DNA from: Sphaerolaimus hirsutus
Lineage: Eukaryota > Nematoda > Chromadorea > Monhysterida > Sphaerolaimidae
Direction of reading: 5' to 3'
NCBI GenBank assembly: GCA_964036195.1
Contig: OZ038450.1
Location: 31,188,794 to 31,252,793 of the forward strand
DNA length: 64,000 nucleotides
Under the pieces are notes generated by a model. It searched no databases, was not told the origin of the DNA, and saw only the letters and a list, made by a program, of their open reading frames with translations. Of the stretch, positions 3,640 through 56,141 are shown piece by piece. The first letter of the stretch is position 1. Each line of letters begins with the position of its first letter. The translations under genes and the position numbers were made by a program.

Positions 3640-3800
3640 ATGTCCAAACTGCTATCTATTTTTGCCCTGACATGTCTCATAATAACCGAGACACGAGGAG
3701 CTACATTCAGTTCAACATTGAAAAGTTTGGGCCAGCGAAAATTCAACAAGGAAAATAGCCATTTGAACCCTAGCTTTAGGAGAATCGCATCAATGGCCAG
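3640..3800 (+). CDS. VWA gene A exon 1a
   Basis: Signal peptide plus residues 21-53 (ATFSSTLKSL...), ending in two bases of the R54 codon at the transposon-derived donor CAG|GTGAC. Confidence 0.88.
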
Positions 3801-6800
3801 GTGACAGTCCCAAGCCCTGTAAAGTGTAAAGTAAAGTGTCAAATGTAAAGTCAAATGCAAAGTAAAGTGTCAAATGTCATGCAAAGTTCAGTAATTAAAT
3901 CTTTTACTTTTTTGTTTTGATTGACACTTGACTTTGCATTTGACTTTACATTTGACACTTTACTTTACACTTTACAGGGCTTGGGACTGCCCCCAGGCAA
4001 TTTCAATCTGATTCGATGGTGATGGTTTTCGATGAAAGTGGCAGCATCACTCAGAGGCACTTTGAAACGGTCAGTGCAGTTGTTAAAAGTATCGAATTTT
4101 TAAGTTTATGTTAAAAGTAAATGTAAACGTAAATTATTTATTTTTTACTCATTCCTGGCCGCGAGTACGGAAAACGCAAAGTAAATTTTTTATTACTTTT
4201 ACTCATATAAAGGTGGATATTTCCGCATTTCTGAACCTGTTCGACTAAACTTCACCACAAATATGTTTTTGTCATGGAAAAAGTCACGAAAAATGCTTCA
4301 TTTGTAACAAATTGATTGTCACACTAAACTTCATCAATATCCGAAATTTTGAGAACCCCTTCAAAATTCAGAGCAAAGAATTCGCAAGGGATGTCATAAA
4401 CGGTGAAACAGATCCATATGGGAGTCTGTTCTTAGAGTTAGGTATCCAAAAGTTTGGTGCCACTGCCACTTTAGTGCAAAGTATGACGTCATCTGCGAGT
4501 CAGGCATTGGCAGCTGTGAATTTCATGACATATGGCACTGGAGCGACGAATATTGCTGAGTTAGTTGAGTTGATATTGAGTGACCGTGAATATACTCGGC
4601 GTACGTGATACTCTGCCCTCGCACTGATTTATGTCTCGTGTTGGAAGTGTGCCAATGATTACTACATCATGCGACTTCCAAAAAAATATGAAAAAATTCA
4701 TCGATGTGAATATGTTAATGAATAACATTATAACAACAATCAATTTTGTCATCTTTTTATGAAACTCGGACGCGTTAACCATCGTTGGCACACTTCCAGC
4801 GGGAACCACGCGTGCAGGGTGTAAAGTAACCGGAGTACAGTGACATGGAGTTATCACTATTCATGGTACAATTTTTCATTTGGTCGTTGAATACAAATAC
4901 TTATGTCTAGAATTTTAATTAATCTCATTTAATTTCGAATTTCACTCAAATCCACATTTTTAGAGAAAAAATGTATGTCATGTTTTCTGGCCAAATGCCA
5001 ACAGTTTTTGTTCATTTTGCATGGCAAAATTGCGCCCCTGTTGAAGGTCTGTTACATTCCAGACAATTATATCGCAATCAATACATTTTTACCACTAGAA
5101 TAATATGTGACCATGTGAATGATGCATCTTAAATATTTACCTGTAAATATGTGTTACATTTACCTATTTTTATATTTCAGTGGGCTATCAAAGGCATGGG
5201 AAATGATCAGGTACAACAGAGGAGAAAAGCTGATTTTATTGTGGACTGATGGCAGGTTTGTGAATGTTAGAGGTAGATAAATGCTCAAACTTCACATGAT
5301 AGGAAAAATGGCAGGTGAAAGAAAACTGGTAAGTGAAGCTAAAGCTGCATTCATACTTTGTGATGAAAAAGTGTATAATTTTGGTTCATTGTTCAAATGG
5401 GTTATGGTAGGTTTCCATGAAAAAGTGTGATGCCACCAAGTATACCTCAAAATAAAAAAAGGAACACCACACAGGCACAACCAGGCAGGAGACCCAGTAC
5501 AAGTGGCACGTGACCTAAAATCGCAGGGAGTGTGCATAATCGTCATAGGTATTGGACCCGATGTGGACGATGCCCAGCTGAAGCAAATCGAGGGTTGCTC
5601 AAATAACTCGCCCACAACAGTGAGCTGGAGATGCTCGGGAAATGGTAAGTTGATTTTGTTGTTACTGCTTGGAAATGGAAACTAGTTTGGACATGGAAAC
5701 TAGTTTGGACATGGAAACTAGTTTGGACATGGAAACTAGTTTGGACGTGGAAACTAGTTTGGACATGGAAACTAGTTTGGACGTGGAAACTAGTTTGGAC
5801 ATGGAAACTAGTTTGGACATGGAAACTAGTTTGGACGTGGAAACTAGTTTGGACATGGAAACTAGTTTGGACATGGAAACTAGTTTGGACATGGAAACTA
5901 GTTTGGAATTGGAAACTAGTTTGGACATGGAAACTAGATTGGAATTGGAAACTAGTTTGGACATGGAAACTAGTTTGGACGTGGAAACTAGTTTGGACAT
6001 GGAAACTAGTTTGGACGTGGAAACTAGTTTGGACATGGAAACTAGATTGGAATTGGAAACTAGTTTGGACATGGAAACTAGTTTGGACGTGGAAACTAGT
6101 TTGGACATGGAAACTAGTTTGGACATGGAAACTAGTTTGGACATGGAAACTAGTTTGGACGTGGAAACTAGTTTGGACATGGAAACTAGTTTGGACGTGG
6201 AAACTAGTTTGGACATGGAAACTAGTTTGGACATGGAAACTAGTTTGGACGTGGAAACTAGTTTGGACATGGAAACTAGTTTGGACATGGAAACTAGTTT
6301 GGACATGGAAACTAGTTTGGAATTGGAAACTAGTTTGGACATGGAAACTAGATTGGAATTGGAAACTAGTTTGGACATGGAAACTAGTTTGGACGTGGAA
6401 ACTAGTTTGGACATGGAAACTAGTTTGGACGTGGAAACTAGTTTGGACATGGAAACTAGTTTGGACGTGGAAACTAGTTTGGACATGGAAACTAGATTGG
6501 AATTGGAAACTAGTTTGGACATGGAAACTAGATTGGAATTGGAAACTAGTTTGGACATGGAAACTAGTTTGGACATGGAAACTAAGTTTGGACATGGAAA
6601 CTAGTTTGGACATGAAAACTAGATTGGAAATGGAAACTAGTTTGGACATGAAAACTAGTTTGGAATTGGAAACTAGTTTGGACATGGAAACTAGTTTGGA
6701 CATGGAAACTAGTTTGGACATGGAAACTAGTTTAAGCATGGAAACTAGTTTGGACATGGAAACTAGTTTGGACATGGAAACTAGTTTGGACATGGAAACT

Positions 6801-8643
6801 AGTTTGGACATGGAAACTAGTTTGGACATGGAAACTAGATTGGAATTGGAAACTAGATTGGAATTGGAAACTAGTTTGGAAAGTTTGGAAATGGAAACTA
6901 GTTTGGAAATGGAAACTAGTCTGCAGAGGCAGGCAGAGCATGCAAAGGGTTGATATGATACCACAGTATCAGTATCTGATTCAACAATAACATCTGGCTC
7001 CAGAATTTATTTGGAAGGCAGATTTGTGCCCTCCCTGCCCAGCAGGACTGCCACTTAACATGCAGTATTGATCTGCCAGCAGTCAGGTGGTCACTGTGAG
7101 GTGCCTTGCATGATGGGGGGGGGGGGTTGGGACGTTGGGTATGTTCAATAACCTTTTGCACCAGCCTTTAAAGCAAGCCTTCCTAATAAAATATAGGGTT
7201 TGGGCTCAGTTTTTGTCTTGGTCATTATCATGCAATTGAGCAGTTTAAACTTTTCAACAAATCTACCTATTTACCTGAATTAACAACACCTTCAAAAAAA
7301 CCCCAGGGCCAGATTTGAGAGAGCCGGGGAAAGATAGGTATTTGAAAATTTGAAGAAACTTGAATTCACAACCCTTTTATCCCTGCTGGCACAAAACTAA
7401 ATCCCCTGGGAGTATTTTGAGGATATGCAGTGATGTTGTGTCTAGACGCTCCAAAAATGCTTCACAATTTTTTTTGATATATTTACAGTTTACCTGTTGT
7501 TTTGAATTATAATAAATTTAATATGAGAGAAATGATCTACCGTATTACCTCGAATAGACCCCCCCCCCCCTTGAATTAACCCCCCCTCGAAATACCCCCT
7601 CAAAATTCGGCTGAGGAAATAATAACCCCCCCCCCCTCGATCGAGATACCCCCCCCCCCTAAAATTGAGTATAAAGAGAACGTACAAGACAAATACCGCA
7701 GTTTGTCACCTGTTCAATGCAGAACACACGTTAAAACTGATGATTGAGTGACGTGAGGGGCAGGGTTTATGTGTACCGTATTTCCTCGAAATACCCCCCC
7801 TCGAAATACCCTCCCCCCTCGTTTGACCCCCCCCCTCTCGAGACCACTATGAAACAATCACCCCCCCCCCCTCGAAATACCCCCCCCCTCAAATTGAGTG
7901 TAAAGTTAACGTACATGACAAATACTGCAGTTTGTGTTCTGCGTAGTGCAGAACACACATTAAAACAATGTCGGAATCATGTTAGAACAGTGTTTATACC
8001 ATCTACCTACTACTATTAGTCTACAGGAGTCTATACGTGTCAGTTATTGATGCATTTTTCTACCCAGCGCACATCACAAACAACGATTTTGTACTAGGAT
8101 TTCAAAAAAAGTTCTTGTGAAATATTAACCCCCCTCGAAATACCCCCCCTCGTTTAACCCCCCCCCCCCCCTCTCAGGAGCACTATGAAACAATCACCCC
8201 CGGGTTTTTTTTCGAGGAAATACGGTATATACAGTGATGTATGCCTATAAACACACATATTTACATCTATGTAATGGTTTGATTTTTCTACGTCTGAGTA
8301 TGGGTAATCTCCGAAAATTTCTGGCGAAATACTAGACCCCCCCTCGAATAAACCCCCCTCGAATTATCCCCCCTCACATTTTGCTGGCGAAATAATAAAC
8401 CCCCTGGGGGTATTTCGAGGTAATACGGTAAGTTGAAACTAAGGAACAACACTTTATTGTGCAGCTATGGATTGCATATGAAATCAAACAGCTTGCCCAT
8501 GTGGATTTTATATACCTACAAAAATTTCACCCTTTCCAGGTCTACTGATCAAGACAAATTTCAATGAAATAGAGCGGAATGTGTCTGGTTTCGTGTCCAA
8601 GGTGCAGAGCACATTTGAGGCTGGTGCACAGTGTGCTGCTTGA
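3640..8643 (+). CDS. VWA gene A: secreted von Willebrand factor A domain protein
   Basis: Exons: 3640-3800, 3997-4069, 4372-4559, 5181-5255, 5475-5644, 8540-8643 (771 nt, 256 aa). Residues 1-20 are a signal peptide (MSKLLSIFALTCLIITETRG), so the product is secreted. A single VWA domain follows. Its metal-ion-dependent adhesion site looks intact: D66-x-S68-x-S70 (DESGS), T137 in TNIAD and D164 in WTDG. Such domains bind ligands through a bound divalent cation; the partner here is unknown. The start is fixed by the signal peptide and by agreement with gene B. Intron phases match B, except that A alone has the 196-nt intron 3801-3996, which is a transposon. The fifth intron carries a 1.25-kb minisatellite. 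Single-domain secreted VWA proteins occur in extracellular matrix, shell matrix and plasma; I cannot choose among these. Confidence 0.9.
3801..3996 (+). mobile_element. Intron 1 of gene A: an F1 MITE acting as an intron (introner-like)
   Basis: The F1 element occupies 3801-3993 (193 bp) with ends GTGACAGTCCCAAGCCC and GGGCTTGGGACTGCCCC. CAG flanks both sides (3798-3800 and 3994-3996). Splicing from GTGAC to the second CAG removes element plus one target copy (196 nt). The two pieces, 161 and 73 nt, rejoin to 234 nt, exactly the length of the uninterrupted exon 1 of gene B, and the frame is kept (MAR|QFQ against MARQHQ). The intron therefore appears to be new and to come from one transposition event. 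Element length equals that of the reverse-orientation copy at 54718-54910. Confidence 0.88.
3997..4069 (+). CDS. VWA gene A exon 1b
   Basis: Carries the first MIDAS motif DESGS (residues 66-70) and ends at GAAACG|GTCAGT, the same phase 0 donor as gene B. Confidence 0.88.
4079..4215 (+). mobile_element. F7 fragment in intron 2 of gene A
   Basis: CAGTTGTTAAAAGTATCG followed by TAAACGTAAATTATT and TTTTTACTC runs, a truncated F7 end. It fills much of the 302-nt intron 4070-4371. Confidence 0.45.
4372..4559 (+). CDS. VWA gene A exon 2
   Basis: Residues 79-140, from SKEFARDVIN to ATNIA, including the MIDAS Thr. The donor is GA|GTTAGT, shared with genes B and C. Phase 2 gives D141 on joining. Confidence 0.88.
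4588..4850 (+). mobile_element. F9-type foldback in intron 3 of gene A
   Basis: Begins TATACTCGGCGTACGTGATA and contains inverted copies of TTGGAAGTGTGCCAATGAT and TTGGCACACTTCCAGC around a 100-bp centre. Related copies lie at 27698-27950, 28860-29120 and 43690-43940. Confidence 0.6.
5181..5255 (+). CDS. VWA gene A exon 3
   Basis: 75 nt encoding GLSKAWEMIRYNRGEKL...WTDG, with the third MIDAS residue D164. Exons of identical length occur in B (39745-39819) and C (25663-25737). Confidence 0.88.
5475..5644 (+). CDS. VWA gene A exon 4
   Basis: Residues 167-222, HNQAGDPVQVARDLKSQG... through the hydrophobic core strand VCIIVIGIG to CSGN. The strong donor GTAAGT follows at 5645. The minisatellite starts 26 nt downstream. 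Confidence 0.85.
5671..6920. repeat. 18-bp minisatellite, about 69 copies, in intron 5 of gene A
   Basis: Tandem array of ATGGAAACTAGTTTGGAC with three main variants that differ where one unit meets the next (GACATG, GACGTG, GAATTG). Longer blocks of variants recur, which suggests amplification in larger units. The unit holds the palindrome AAACTAGTTT. Because it is a multiple of three without stops in several frames, it yields long spurious open frames on both strands. Gene B has a single unit at the matching place (40610-40634). Confidence 0.95.
6921..7540. other. Intron 5 of gene A, unassigned part
   Basis: No coding signal. A G9 tract lies near 7116-7125. The piece around 7305-7335 (CCCAGGGCCAGATTTGAGAG) resembles F2 centres. 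Confidence 0.4.
7541..8430. mobile_element. Cluster of F2 C-tract MITEs in intron 5 of gene A
   Basis: At least three adjoining or nested F2 elements. Starts or ends appear at 7541 (CCGTATTACCTCG), 7776 (CCGTATTTCCTCG), 8213-8226 (CGAGGAAATACGGTA) and 8417-8430 (CGAGGTAATACGGTA). Between them are tracts of 8-13 C and remnants of the family centre (GTTCTGC...CAGAACAC). Confidence 0.75.
8540..8643 (+). CDS. VWA gene A exon 5 (last)
   Basis: Acceptor TTTCCAG at 8533-8539, then G223 completed and LLIKTNFNEIERNVSGF... to the end GAQCAA and TGA. Length is 104 nt, as in the two other copies. Confidence 0.88.
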
Positions 8644-25635: not shown

Positions 25636-25662
25636 TGTATTTTTGCTATCGTTGCCACTAAC

Positions 25663-25737
25663 CTGCCATCAATATGAAGAATAATAAGCTTGTCACCTCC
25701 GATGTTCTCCATCATTTCTCCCGCTTTCAAAAGGCCA
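25663..25737 (-). pseudogene. VWA gene C exon 3-like
   Basis: 75 nt, frame open, encodes GLLKAGEMMENIGGDK...HIDGR. The metal-binding Asp is kept. Confidence 0.75.
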
Positions 25738-26001
25738 CTGAAAATGAAATGGTTCTGAAGCAGGTAAATATGTATGTTTAATACATCATTGGAATGTTAA
25801 TATTTTATTTACTTCATGTAAAAGTGGATTTACACCATAATGAGAAATTCAGTCTAGACAAATTACAATAACAGAATATGTTTTATGTTTTTTTTCATTT
25901 GAAATAAACATTTGAAAACTCCAAAAAAATTGAAAATGCAAAAACATTTTCGAAATTTTCATTTGCTATTGTTACAAAAAAGCCGCTCAATTTTAACTAA
26001 C

Positions 26002-26192
26002 TCAGCTAGGTGTCTGCTGGCTGCAGTGTCATCAAATGTCATGTTTTCTACAGCTACAAATGCCTGGCTCGGGGATGTGGTCAAACCAAGAACTTCTGTC
26101 GCATACGCACTAAATTTTACAATACCAATTTCCAATTTAAGACTGCCTTGCAAATTGTTGGCGTTTATGATAGCCCTCGCCATGTTTTTGGC
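26002..26192 (-). pseudogene. VWA gene C exon 2-like
   Basis: Open throughout, 191 nt. The intron side of the donor (GTTAGTTAAAATTGAG) is nearly identical to that of gene B (GTTAGTTCAAATTGAG), showing shared ancestry of the intron too. Confidence 0.75.
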
Positions 26193-37499: not shown

Positions 37500-37733
37500 A
37501 TGTCCAAAGTTATATCATTCTTTGCCCTGACATGTCTCATAATAACTGAGACAAAAGGAGCCACATTCAGTTCAACATTGAAAAGTTTGGGCCAGAGAAA
37601 ATTCGACAGGGAAACAAGTCATTTGAGCCCAACTTTGAAGAGAATCGCAGACATGGCCAGACAACATCAATTGGATACGATGGTGATGGTTTTCGATGAA
37701 AGTGGCAGCATCGGACAGCGACACTTTGAAACG
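37500..37733 (+). CDS. VWA gene B exon 1
   Basis: Uninterrupted 78 codons. The sequence at the gene A insertion point is ATGGCCAGACAACAT, with CAG the empty target site. Confidence 0.9.
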
Positions 37734-40700
37734 GTCAGTGCTGTACAGATAAACATGCTTCACGCAATTTCAAAATTTTAAAATATGTGAAAATATGGTG
37801 AAGTGCAGTGAAGCAATCGCCAGCTTTGTGAAGTGCCTGGAAAGGTTTCTATGGGCGCGTTTTGTTGTATTTATGTACAACATAGACCCAAATTTAGTGT
37901 GCCCCAAATTTAGTGTATAGAGAACGTAAATGACAAAAGCTGCGGTTTGTCATCTGGGTAATGCAAAACACACGTTAAAAACGATGACTCTGTTATGTGA
38001 GAACAGTGATTATACGTCTACACACTTATACAAGTCTTTAGAGTCTTATAAATGGCGATTTTTGTTGCATTTTCGACGTCTGCGTACATTTCAAACGACA
38101 ATTTAGTACTTGGTTTTCAAAAAGTTTCTGGCGAAATAATAAACCCCCCTCGAAATACCCCCCCCCCCTCGTTTAACCCCCCTCAAAATTCTCACTCTGA
38201 AAAAACAAACCCCTCGGGCCGGAAGTATTTCGAGGAAATACGGTATTTACACCATTTCAATGCAAATTTTGTTGCACTCCACAAGGTGGCCTTCTATTAT
38301 TAGCAATGCCAATGAATGCCACTTGCAATCATTTCACAGGTTGTGAAAAAAAAGTGTTTCTTGTATAACACGTCCTCAAGGCTCAAGTATACTTTGAGAC
38401 ATTTTCATATGTGTCTTACCATATATACTCGAATAATTCCCCCTTCTTGTATAATCCCCCTTGCGCTTGATTAATTCGTTAATTCGAGTAGTTTAATAAA
38501 AAAGCGTCAATTTCAGAGCAAAATCTTCGCAAGAGATGTGATAAACAGCGAAACGAACTCGAATGGCAATCTCAATTTGGAAATTGGTATCCAAAAATTT
38601 GGTGCCCATGCTACATCAGTTCTGAGTATAACGACATCCCCGAGTCAGGCGTTGGCAGGTGTAAATGGCATGACATATGGCAGTGCGGGAAGCACTAACA
38701 TTGCTGAGTTAGTTCAAATTGAGTTACCGTATTTCCTCGAAATACCCCCCCCCCCTCGAAATACCCCCCCCCCCTCGTTTGACCCCCCCTCTCGGGACCA
38801 CTATGAAACATCACCCCCCCCTCGAAATACCCCCCCCCAAATTGAGTGTAAAGGGAACGTACATGACAACAACTGCAGGTTGTGTTCTGTGTACTGCAGA
38901 ACACACGTTAAAACAATGTCGGTGTCACGTTAGAACAGTGTACATACCATCTACATACTAATATTAGTCTACAGAACCTTATAAATGGCGGTTTTTGTTG
39001 CATTTTTCGACGTCTGCCTACGTTTCAGACGACAATTTCGTACTTGGTTTTCAAAAATTTTCTTGTGAAATAATAACCCCCCCCCCTCGAAATACCCCCC
39101 CCCTCGTTTAACCCCCCCCCCCCTCTCGGGACCACTATGAAACAATCACCCCCCGGGGGTATTTCGAGGAAATACGGTACTTATAGCTATACAATTTTGT
39201 AATAGTTAGATACAAATACTTACCGTATTTGCCTGAATAGTTCCCCCCGCTTGAATAATCCCCCCCTCGAATAATCCCCCCTGTAAGACGAGTGAGGAAA
39301 TAATAATTCCCCCCTCGAATAATCCCCCCTAAAAGATATTTGATCAATAAGTTGTGCCAAATTTAAACAAAAATGGCATATTTTTGTGTTAAAAAAGCAT
39401 ATTTTGTGAAATGACTTAATAGAAAGATGCTCGAAAAATTTGACGAAAGAATAATTCCCCCCCCCCCCCTCGAATAATTCCTACCCTTGAATAGTTCCCC
39501 CTCAAAAAAGTCTTGCGAAATAATAATCCCCCAGGGGGATTATTCAAGCAAATACGGTATCTCTAAATTTCGGATGTCATTTGATGGATTGTACCCGTTT
39601 CATAGTGAAGTTTTCAAAACCAATTAAGCGAAAATAAACTGCATTAAGTTTCCTCGTGTAGTAAGTTGATCTAACTGTTCAATTGAACTGTTATAGCAAG
39701 GGCATTTAACACATTTACCCATATTCACCCATTTTACCTTTCAGTGGTCTGTCAAAAGCGGGTGACATGATGCAGTATAGCAGGGGACAAAAACTGATCA
39801 TGTTGTGGACTGACGGCAGGTTTGTGAATAGATATATTCTGGGGCTTTTATAATCCTAACCATTTATGTGATAAAAAGTAGTTTCGTGTGATGGAACAAG
39901 TCGAAAATTCTAAAATAAACCTTAAAGTGACAATAAAATTTTCAAGTGACTAGATGTTTATTCATCTGAAAACTGAGTGAAATTTCTCATGCCATGCTTT
40001 CATTGGCCTGGCCACTTTTCGACTACATGTATAAGTGACACTTGAAAACAAAAACCACTACACATTATCCATCACACAAAGCTGTCCCCTCGAAAAATCC
40101 CCCCCCCCCCACAACAACCCAGACACAACACAGCCGGAGACCCAGTACAAGTGGCTACCAACCTAAAAGCACAGGGAGTGTGCATAATCGTCATCGCAAT
40201 TGGTTCCAGCGTGGACCAGGCACAACTGTCTCAAATTGAGGGTTGCGGTCAATTTACTCCGGCCCCAGTGGTGTGCCAAAAGCCCCCCTGCCCTTCAAGG
40301 CCCGCCCTACCTGCTTCTAAACCCTGCCCTACTGGAGGTTGGCTGGATCTTATTGGTGTTGTTGTTTTTTGATGGAAAGTGGTTAGCTTGTGCACTTCCA
40401 GACTCTTTAAAATGCCCTGTAAAACGGCATATTTATGTCATGCAAGGCGTCTTAAGTCATGTCATGTCAAATGCGGTTTACTTTGGACACTTTTCATAAC
40501 ATCTGACATTTCGCAGGGTATTTTCCATGACTTTAAACACTTGCATGACATTATACAGGGCATTTTACACGATGTGGTAGTGCCCCAGCTGCAAGATTTG
40601 GATTTCCATATGGAAACTAGTTTGCAGAGACAGTAGGTATAGTCGGCAGACATGATACTATACAATGAGTCGCATGATGTCATATCATGCACGCTGTATC

Positions 40701-41522
40701 CAACCCGTAGAACTCTGTTTTGGTGACTCGTGCTTACGCATATACGGAATGAAACTATTCAATTGTGCCCGCACAATTCAAACCCCCGTCAAAGTGTAGT
40801 TGAGTTTTTTGGCATGATGCCATCCAAGCGTCGTCTGGATCTGAATAAATACAAAGCGGGAACGTTTTCTGAATTCATGATTTTGAACGTAACAAGTTTT
40901 CGTCAAAATGAATCGATAGCGTGTAACTTTTCTAAATATGAATAAGATTAAACGTAGGTAAATGTATAATCAAAAATTTGCAGCACCTATCGGCACAAAA
41001 ATTGGAGTAAACGAGTGCGTAAAGAACAGCACATTTTTATTTTCCTTCTTACTATCTTTATATTTTCTTTTTTACTAAATTCCTTTCTCGTTCGCTCTAC
41101 AAGAACAAAATATAACTTTCCAATTTTGTAGAATGATATGTCCGTCGACTATACATATTGACATATTCACGACCCACTGTGCACCGTTTTTCTACCGTAT
41201 TTAAAATGTATCGCACTTCGCTGTTCAGTAAGATGTTGAATTTCATTGACGCTCAGCGAAGGGAAACATAAGTGGACTAAACCTGTATAATATCATGTCT
41301 GCCGACTATACACTGCTTTGAACATGCAAAAAATCATTTCAACACCTCTTTTGCATATGCAAATGAAACACTTCATTCATATACTTTTCCATTCTGCAAA
41401 ATATTTCACTTTTCACAGCTCTGCTAATCGAGACGGACTTCGATGAGATCGAGCAGAGCGTGTCCGGCTTCCTGTCCCAGGTGCAGGGCACACTCGCGGC
41501 CGGCACACAGTGTGTCGCGTGA
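37500..41522 (+). CDS. VWA gene B: secreted von Willebrand factor A domain protein
   Basis: Exons: 37500-37733, 38517-38707, 39745-39819, 40123-40337, 41419-41522 (819 nt, 272 aa). Same plan as gene A: signal peptide MSKVISFFALTCLIITETKG, then a VWA domain with DESGS at 66-70, TNIAD and WTDG, giving a complete metal site, and the C-terminal GTQCVA. Exon 1 is a single 234-nt piece, whereas in A it is split by a transposon. Exon 4 encodes a Pro/Cys-rich stretch (APVVCQKPPCPSRPALP...) absent from A. The exon 4 donor is the weakest call: GTTGGC at 40338 fits the phase, GTGTTG about 19 nt later is an alternative. Introns hold F2, F1 and F9 elements. Ligand unknown. Confidence 0.88.
37895..38460. 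mobile_element. F2 pieces in intron 1 of gene B
   Basis: Family core (TAGAGAACGTAAATGACAAA, TCTTATAAATGGCG) and right end CGAGGAAATACGGTA at 38231-38244; a decayed start TACTCGAATAATTCCCCC at 38426. Confidence 0.65.
38517..38707 (+). CDS. VWA gene B exon 2
   Basis: Residues 79-141, SKIFARDVINSETNSNG... to TNIA, donor GA|GTTAGT. One codon longer than in A. An F2 element is inserted 18 nt after the exon. Confidence 0.88.
38726..39179. mobile_element. F2 MITE in intron 2 of gene B
   Basis: TACCGTATTTCCTCGAAATA to CGAGGAAATACGGTA, 454 bp, complete, with the long core (GTGTTCTGTGTACTGCAGAA). Confidence 0.85.
39223..39561. mobile_element. F2c MITE in intron 2 of gene B
   Basis: TACCGTATTTGCCTGAATAG to TTCAAGCAAATACGGTA, the CCGTATTTGC subfamily also seen at 48707 and 51890. 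Confidence 0.8.
39745..39819 (+). CDS. VWA gene B exon 3
   Basis: GLSKAGDMMQYSRGQKL...WTDGR, 75 nt, acceptor TTTCAG, donor AG|GTTTGT. Confidence 0.88.
40084..40122 (+). promoter_or_regulatory. C-tract polypyrimidine region at the exon 4 acceptor of gene B
   Basis: CCCCTCGAAAAATCCCC followed by a long C run precedes ACAACAACCCAG|A. The text resembles an F2 arm, and gene A lacks it at the same acceptor. Confidence 0.5.
40123..40337 (+). CDS. VWA gene B exon 4
   Basis: HNTAGDPVQVATNLKAQG..., core strand VCIIVIAIG, then the Pro/Cys-rich stretch to CPTG. Upstream boundary well supported by gene A; downstream donor uncertain. Confidence 0.78.
40390..40586 (+). mobile_element. Degenerate F1 MITE in intron 4 of gene B
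   Basis: GTGCACTTCCAGACTC at left, GTGGTAGTGCCCC at right, arms with TGCAAGGCGTCTTAAGTC type repeats. Target duplication not clear. Confidence 0.5.
40597..40634 (+). repeat. Single unit of the gene A minisatellite
   Basis: CATATGGAAACTAGTTTGCA then GAGACAG. It matches the right border of the gene A array (ATGGAAACTAGTCTGCAGAG), so this locus keeps the unexpanded state. Confidence 0.75.
40638..41310. mobile_element. F9 TA-flanked element in intron 4 of gene B
   Basis: 673 bp, ends TATAGTCGGCAGACATGATA and TATCATGTCTGCCGACTATA. No transposase frame. Confidence 0.75.
41419..41522 (+). CDS. VWA gene B exon 5 (last)
   Basis: Acceptor TTTCACAG, LLIETDFDEIEQSVSGF... to GTQCVA and TGA at 41520-41522. 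Confidence 0.88.
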
Positions 41523-54714: not shown

Positions 54715-54717
54715 CTG

Positions 54718-54910
54718 GGGGCAGTCCCAAGCCCTGTAAAGTGTAAAGTAAAGTGTCAAATGTAAAGTCAAATGCAAAGTAAAGTGTCAATCAAAACAAA
54801 AAAAGAAAAGATTTTATTACTGAACTTTGCATGACAATTGACACTTTACTTTGCATTTGACTTTACATTTGACACTTTACTTTACACTTTACAGGGCTTG
54901 GGATTGGCAC
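54718..54910 (-). mobile_element. F1 MITE, reverse, 193 bp
   Basis: GGGGCAGTCCCAAGCCC to GGGCTTGGGATTGGCAC, flanked by CTG (54715-54717 and 54911-54913). Same length and closely similar arms to the intron-forming copy in gene A. It shares the CTG at 54715-54717 with the F1b element before it. Confidence 0.8.
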
Positions 54911-54913
54911 CTG

Positions 54914-55927: not shown

Positions 55928-55946
55928 CTGATGGAGCTGGCACCAG

Positions 55947-56138
55947 GGGGCAATCCCAAGCCATGTAATGTGTAAAGTAAATTGTCAAATGTAAAGTCAA
56001 ATGCAAAGTAAAGTGTCAATCAAAACAAAAAAGAAAAGATTTTATTACTGAACTTTGCATGACAATTGACACTTTACTTTGCATTTGACTTTACATTTGA
56101 CACTTTACTTTACACTTTACAGGGCTTGGGATTGCCAC
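55947..56138 (-). mobile_element. F1 MITE, reverse, 192 bp
   Basis: GGGGCAATCCCAAGCC to GGGCTTGGGATTGCCAC, flanked by CAG (55944-55946 and 56139-56141). Confidence 0.8.
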
Positions 56139-56141
56139 CAG

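Follow-up and report, generated by a model that had tools for sequence, protein, structure and literature searches.

A CWG-targeting MITE family that probably supplies introns to genes of the nematode Sphaerolaimus hirsutus

A MITE inside a VWA gene

The window is a 64,000-nt stretch of the S. hirsutus genome (assembly GCA_964036195.1, contig OZ038450.1) that carries a cluster of VWA paralogues at 24–125, 3640–8642, 25662–26192 (reverse strand), and 37500–41522. The first of these resembles the last exon of a VWA gene whose start lies upstream of the window. Gene A, on the forward strand, has six coding pieces in all: exon 1a (3640–3800), which begins with the start codon at 3640 and is homologous to exon 1 of paralogue B; exon 1b (3997–4069), which holds the start of the VWA domain and a DESGS motif; and modeled exons at 4372–4559, 5181–5255, 5475–5644, and 8540–8642, with GT-AG borders and no internal stop. 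Its four other introns are GT-AG. Paralogue B, also on the forward strand, has an unsplit exon 1 (37500–37733) and modeled exons at 38517–38707, 39745–39819, 40123–40247, and 41419–41522; the A and B first exons are 79% identical at the amino acid level. Other repeats lie in the introns of both genes. The last intron of gene A contains a long tandem minisatellite with a GGAAACTAGTTTGGACAT-type unit (5660–6930), and C-rich TCGAAATACCCCCC blocks at 7550–8430 and 38000–39400 belong to a further dispersed repeat, within introns of the two genes.

Exon 1 of gene A is interrupted after ATGGCCAG, and the coding frame picks up again at 3997. The insert is 196 bases long (3801–3996) and consists of one 193-bp inverted-repeat element, a MITE that we call F1 (3801–3993, forward strand), plus one CAG. 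The sequence reads CAG on both sides of the element, at 3798–3800 and 3994–3996, and its arms (3792–3873 and 3921–4002) are 94% complementary. The 5′ target copy would form the last exonic bases ahead of a putative donor, CAG/GTGACA, and the 3′ copy would be the acceptor; a competing AG lies inside the element at 3976–3977 (TTTACAG/GG). Left unspliced, gene A reads ATG GCC AGG TGA, and so meets a stop within the first four bases of the element (one TGA counted). With 3801–3996 removed, it encodes an intact 256-residue VWA protein, the whole of which matches the Pfam VWA family (E = 5.6e-23). The first-pass annotation had described this insert as an intron composed of one F1 MITE and one copy of its target, and had noted that the 161-nt and 73-nt exon pieces rejoin, in frame, to the 234 nt of the unsplit exon 1 of B. 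The borders and the lengths were both re-found, as was the empty site that B was said to keep, ATGGCCAGACAAC at 37653.

That gene A contains an F1 insertion is near certain. That the insertion postdates the split between A and B is shown directly by the whole element, the CAG repeat, the 96%–98% identity to the scored copies, and the empty site in B. The “recent” part of the recent intron gain proposed earlier stands as an observation. The “intron” part draws on the family, whose copies split many conserved genes with, in the sample, a bias toward the sense orientation, and one of which sits in the only MSH2 stretch and another in the only cyclin-Y stretch found in the genome. On that basis, there is a strong case that the F1 copy in gene A is an intron. 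The window holds two more F1 copies, both near-full and on the reverse strand, at 54715–54913 (CAG/CAG) and 55946–56139 (CTG/CTG; also given as 55944–56141).

Targets, age classes, and orientation across the genome

A DNA search of the whole genome (348 Mb) gave 741 candidates, 40 of which were scored; these correspond to 80 search rows, with each place read on both strands, and all 40 places match at 96%–100%. Full copies were fetched for 29 places other than gene A, chosen as the best-scoring matches to the element in A rather than at random, and they differ from one another at ~2 positions on average. CWG lies beside the 5′ end in 28 of the 29, beside the 3′ end in 26, and on both sides in 25. 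The left end starts with GT in 27/29, and the right end, inverted, reads GGGGCAGTCCC. The earlier description named CAG, as in gene A (CAG/CAG); the target of the family is CWG (CAG or CTG), and a CAG-only target was rejected. The middle base of the target differs between the two sides in 11 of the 25 copies with CWG on both. Among these F1 copies (L007–L035), seven of the mismatched targets are CTG/CAG and four are CAG/CTG, as if an overhang mismatch had been repaired either way. The copy in gene A differs from the family consensus in seven alignment columns. One of these falls in the target, and two lie close to the donor, where the copy reads GTGACAGT and the family reads GTGCCAAT or GTGGCAGT. 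At donor position +4, it has A (GTGACA), in contrast to C or G in the other 31 aligned copies. An A at +4 also occurs elsewhere in the genome, with at least one CTG-ended copy (L105) starting GTGACA.

The strict shape G/GTG...CAG matches 477 + 477 = 954 copies across the genome, versus 0 for the reversed control. The shape GTG...CTG matches 642. The first 30 CAG-shape and the first 30 CTG-shape copies along contig C1, a single chromosome, served as a sample. Flanks were joined at the target copy, and the scan took every frame that stayed open for 25 residues or more to either side of the join. In the CAG set, 22 loci carry 34 such ORFs in sense and 17 carry 24 in antisense; for the CTG set, the tallies are 23 ORFs in sense (14 loci) and 23 in antisense (16 loci). 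All 34 sense ORFs of the CAG set, and the three positive ORFs of the CTG set, were traced to loci. At E ≤ 0.01, Pfam matches occur in sense orientation at 9/30 loci of the CAG set (13 families) and in antisense orientation at 0/30. The domains are LRR, STAG, peptidase S9, a weak zinc finger, two cadherins, a cyclin, RsmB/F, and a marginal DUF4715/RGS-like match at L079. In the CTG set, sense matches occur at 3/30 loci (GPCR, E1 dehydrogenase, and sugar transporter), and the one antisense match (1/30) is a marginal PHD_3 (E = 0.0076). Pooled, sense exceeds antisense by 12/60 to 1/60 (p = 0.002). At E ≤ 0.001, seven CAG-set loci remain in sense and none in antisense, and the CTG set has three and none, for a pooled 10/60 versus 0/60 (p = 0.0013). 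The difference between the two sets in sense loci, 9/30 versus 3/30, is not significant (p = 0.10). Domain matches miss genes that are not recognized, so these coding counts are lower bounds.

The position of the domain relative to the junction varies among the positive loci. In the CAG set, the Pfam stretch spans the junction at L056, L066 (E = 0.0065), L068, L074, and L079 (E = 0.0032), is one-sided at L052, L067, and L078, and ends at the junction at L059. It spans the junction at all three positive loci of the CTG set (L101, L104, and L109). A further CAG-set locus, L072, is MSH2-like; it has no Pfam match and lies outside the nine. Two near-identical CTG-set loci, L100 and L102, carry a CTG-ended element that, by eye, seems to run opposite to a coding frame and so may break the sense rule; these long frames have no Pfam match, and the marginal PHD_3 match lies in neither of them. 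The CTG-ended coding copies L101, L104, and L109, together with L043 (a VWA paralogue described below), have GTG directly after the target (CTG/GTG), which extends the direct repeat with the GTG end of the element. GTG directly follows the target in 10/30 copies of the CTG set and 7/30 of the CAG set.

The sampled copies fall into two age classes. Copies whose leader is not CAAGCC are termed F2-type (39 copies), and the remaining 21 are F1-type; by this rule L096 counts as F2-type, although its leader, AGGCC, is close to F1. Mean identity is 82% for the F2-type copies and 96% for the F1-type. The flanks of F2-type copies are GC-rich (means 0.595 and 0.573), while those of F1-type copies are AT-rich (0.393 and 0.417). 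The Pfam-positive sense loci are all F2-type: 12/39 versus 0/21 at E ≤ 0.01 (p = 0.005), and 10/39 versus 0/21 at E ≤ 0.001 (p = 0.011). A single animal genome thus holds F1, which is young and highly uniform, beside an older family (F2-type) lodged in genes.

Genome-wide, F1-type copies number 438 with CAG and 340 with CTG, and F2-type copies, by subtraction, 516 and 302. If orientation were free, CAG and CTG should be equally common. F1-type copies are already skewed (438:340, p = 0.0005), and hence we attribute to selection for an AG only the additional skew seen in F2-type copies (odds ratio 1.33, p = 0.006). Mixed borders are also uneven: CTG/CAG is somewhat commoner than CAG/CTG, with 10 mixed copies in the CAG set versus 4 in the CTG set. 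With F1-type copies showing it as well, the CAG excess looks partly intrinsic, and its value as pure proof of selection is weakened accordingly.

Conserved genes and VWA paralogues that hold copies

Six joined peptides, picked for their conserved look, were aligned to PDB sequences. Four of the alignments cross the join without a gap: cyclin-Y (85 residues, 1e-40), MSH2 (91 residues, 2.4e-13), the cohesin subunit SA-1 (STAG; 45 residues, 3.5e-11), and a D-xylose symporter (60 residues, 4.1e-10). The alignment to BCKDHA, the branched-chain ketoacid dehydrogenase alpha subunit, crosses the join with one gap elsewhere (2.4e-16). An alignment to NSUN6 (L078; 5.6e-7) has one 4-residue gap off the junction and only five residues left of the join. 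Borders are element-exact at gene A and at the cyclin-Y, MSH2, STAG, and NSUN6-like loci, all of which would be introns by the same reasoning. MSH2 is a DNA-repair gene, and its stretch is found once in the genome. Indeed, neither the MSH2 nor the cyclin-Y stretch was found unsplit anywhere in the whole genome, each matching only as two MITE-flanking halves. The BCKDHA-like gene has one other, unsplit relative in the genome, 43% identical. In cyclin-Y, the 5′ target copy is CTG and encodes a leucine common to the cyclin-Y structure, and the 3′ copy is CAG. The VWA gene at L042 has the same arrangement, with a 5′ CTG for a leucine shared with its paralogues and a 3′ CAG. In both cases, therefore, the 5′ copy would remain in the message and the 3′ copy would leave with the element. 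CTG-ended copies, without a border AG, are also found in conserved genes, namely those for BCKDHA, the sugar transporter, and the GPCR.

The VWA paralogues themselves have been hit repeatedly. Searching the genome with the A exon-1 peptide gave 15 scored candidates and 14 matches, at 11 loci. Exon 1 is unsplit at five of these (B, L037, L039, L040, and L041) and split by related MITEs at six (A, L042, L045, L044, L047, and L043). The split sites are at four different positions within the 234 nt, with one site common to L042, L045, and L044, and all six elements are in sense orientation. The L043 copy ends in CTG and lacks a border AG. L042 has homologues of exons 2–5; joined as far as exon 4, they keep an open frame. 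The elements at L042 and L045, which represent a common F2-type insertion, differ at 6/195 positions, and their first exons differ by seven synonymous changes and one non-synonymous change (dN/dS = 0.037). This low ratio is weaker support than it seems at first sight, because L045 has no downstream exons in the next ~10 kb and L044 is frame-shifted.

How the element would become an intron, and what is known of similar systems

How could a MITE give rise to introns? In the mechanism we propose, a non-autonomous, CWG-targeting MITE makes an intron upon landing in sense orientation in a coding exon. The left end would supply GT and the duplicated CWG the rest, such that a CAG target yields exon...CAG/GTG......CCCCAG/exon. 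The 5′ CAG copy would remain exonic and strengthen the donor, the 3′ copy would become the acceptor, and excision would restore the empty site and the frame exactly. The transcript would fold into a long hairpin, which draws the ends of the element close to each other and hides the GT and AG sites in between. Gene A would be the host of a recent F1 copy, and older F2-type relatives would have done likewise in other genes. We infer removal by the spliceosome, the role of the hairpin, and mobilization by a NuwaI/PIF-Harbinger-type transposase. Judged from the sequences described above, S. hirsutus very probably has an introner system built on this MITE, with spliceosomal removal, and at the level of the family the introner claim is strong.

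RNA folding is consistent with a role for the hairpin. The insert in gene A is predicted to form a single long hairpin of −132.7 kcal/mol (shuffled sequences, −45.3 ± 4.1; z = −21), and the cyclin-Y copy folds at −128 kcal/mol (z = −18). The post-loop arm of the predicted fold in gene A contains two AGs only: the AG of TTTACAG is fully paired within the stem, and the terminal CAG is partly open, with the open part at the base of the hairpin, beside the donor. This suggests, rather than shows, that the fold selects the terminal splice sites. Most copies have a GTGCCA donor, which past +3 matches the general consensus poorly. TTTACAG lies 19 nt upstream of the acceptor; it could be preferred, and its use would shift the frame.

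Because CTG-ended copies lie in conserved coding exons, an absolute requirement for a border AG is not supported, and the simple model does not account for these copies. Splicing of the CTG copies through the internal TTTACAG was considered, but the 19 nt left behind would break the frame. A more speculative idea, which we regard as possible but doubtful, is that the hairpin and the direct repeats, rather than an AG, mainly direct removal, and that CTG copies are spliced out of conserved genes (BCKDHA-like, sugar transporter) with TG or another non-AG 3′ end. If so, either center base of CWG would work, and the whole transposon family would be pre-adapted as introns whichever strand of the target is taken. 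TG acceptors are on record in human (PMC2374985), and non-AG ends are reported for Fritillaria (PMC13326754); neither is evidence for the present species.

Each part of this reading has rivals. Intron loss is generally thought to be commoner than intron gain in animals, and this favors an old intron in the ancestor of A and B that B has lost. The probability of such a loss is nonetheless negligible, and it was rejected: the insert in A consists of a single MITE bounded by its two target copies and 96%–98% identical to the other scored copies, and exon 1 is whole in B and four more paralogues and interrupted at different positions in others. It is also highly improbable that the copies in coding exons are a chance overlap, with MITEs favoring GC-rich open chromatin and with host genes that are dead or joins that are artefactual. 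The GC-rich flanks of F2-type copies fit this picture. On the other hand, antisense insertions in recognizable coding sequence are nearly absent from the sample, the joined proteins are conserved and open through the junction, and the genome search turned up no second copy of MSH2 or cyclin-Y. Slightly less improbable is removal mainly via the internal TTTACAG, with 19 extra nt kept and the frame-shifted or nonsense transcripts acting on gene dose. This AG is the first past the loop in A, and 33/39 F2-type and 21/21 F1-type sampled copies retain an AG 16–22 nt ahead of the 3′ target copy. However, it is fully paired in the predicted stem in A, its use would inactivate the only MSH2 and cyclin-Y copies found, and it has been lost at L066, L069, L078, and L079 in the CAG set and at L102 and L106 in the CTG set.

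The most serious rival concerns gene A alone. The family may make introns while the copy in A is a disrupting insertion, with A a young pseudogene or a null allele in the assembly. The immediate in-frame TGA, the weak donor, and the rate of protein change all favor disruption: dN to Y, the gene at L042, is 0.253 for A and 0.145 for B, with dS alike, and gene A may be decaying, given its faster protein change. Set against this, A has kept its other exons, its splice borders, and a 256-residue open frame, the dN/dS between A and B is 0.21, and the donor of A is nearer the consensus than that of the family. If the insertion is very young, however, the intactness of A is weak evidence. We consider disruption of A unlikely, with more weight than the other rivals carry. 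Given the faster protein change in A than in B, we are less sure that its copy is spliced than that the family is; splicing of the A copy is likely rather than proven, and the preferred reading is still that the element in A is a newly gained intron.

Where animals acquire new introns from has long been asked, and few recent cases are proven. With young F1 and older F2-type copies in one animal genome, the steps by which a transposon turns into a fixed intron could be traced directly, as could the tuning of donors and acceptors and the need, if any, for a border AG. Introners have been found elsewhere. Those of Micromonas and Aureococcus are said, in work by Huff et al. from 2016, to be DNA-transposon MITEs whose target duplication supplies a splice site; the present system differs in host group and in the length and sequence of the target. 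The first-pass annotation was right that introns are known to be built by such a route, but introners are not confined to algae: according to passages of Gozashti et al. 2022 (PMC9860276), introners are reported in two animal groups only. As in the portions of that survey describing them, the elements here are non-autonomous repeats in exons, with target duplications and terminal inverted repeats (present in many of the surveyed families) and, as in some, a splice site drawn from the duplicated target. Unlike those described there, they have a CWG target and an almost full-length hairpin. By keyword, the main text of PMC9860276 mentions neither Harbinger nor CACTA nor superfamilies. Among the titles and abstract starts listed by a literature search mostly of open papers, none describes a CWG or Harbinger-type introner in an animal; this does not prove their absence. 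Fritillaria borealis is likewise an animal host, for which introner transposons with weak splice sites are mentioned in passages of a 2026 NAR paper (PMC13326754); fewer than 10% of its introns are GT/AG, whereas the four other introns of gene A are GT-AG. In the present genome, a GH6 search as a tunicate marker, run without a positive control, found no match; COX1 lies on contig C762 with 14 in-frame TGA codons, in keeping with a mitochondrial code, and the gene content encountered suggests an animal host. The closest match to the transposon itself may be NuwaI, of the PHIS (PIF/Harbinger-related) group, which passages of Han et al. 2015 (PMC4482050) describe from animals, with CWG duplications and terminal inverted repeats usually starting GGG. 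Those NuwaI passages do not mention introns, and the left end here begins GTG. The 3-bp CWG duplication (25/29 F1 copies) and the animal host are shared, and a GGG-type end may fit through the inverted right end; in its target and end sequence the MITE resembles NuwaI transposons.
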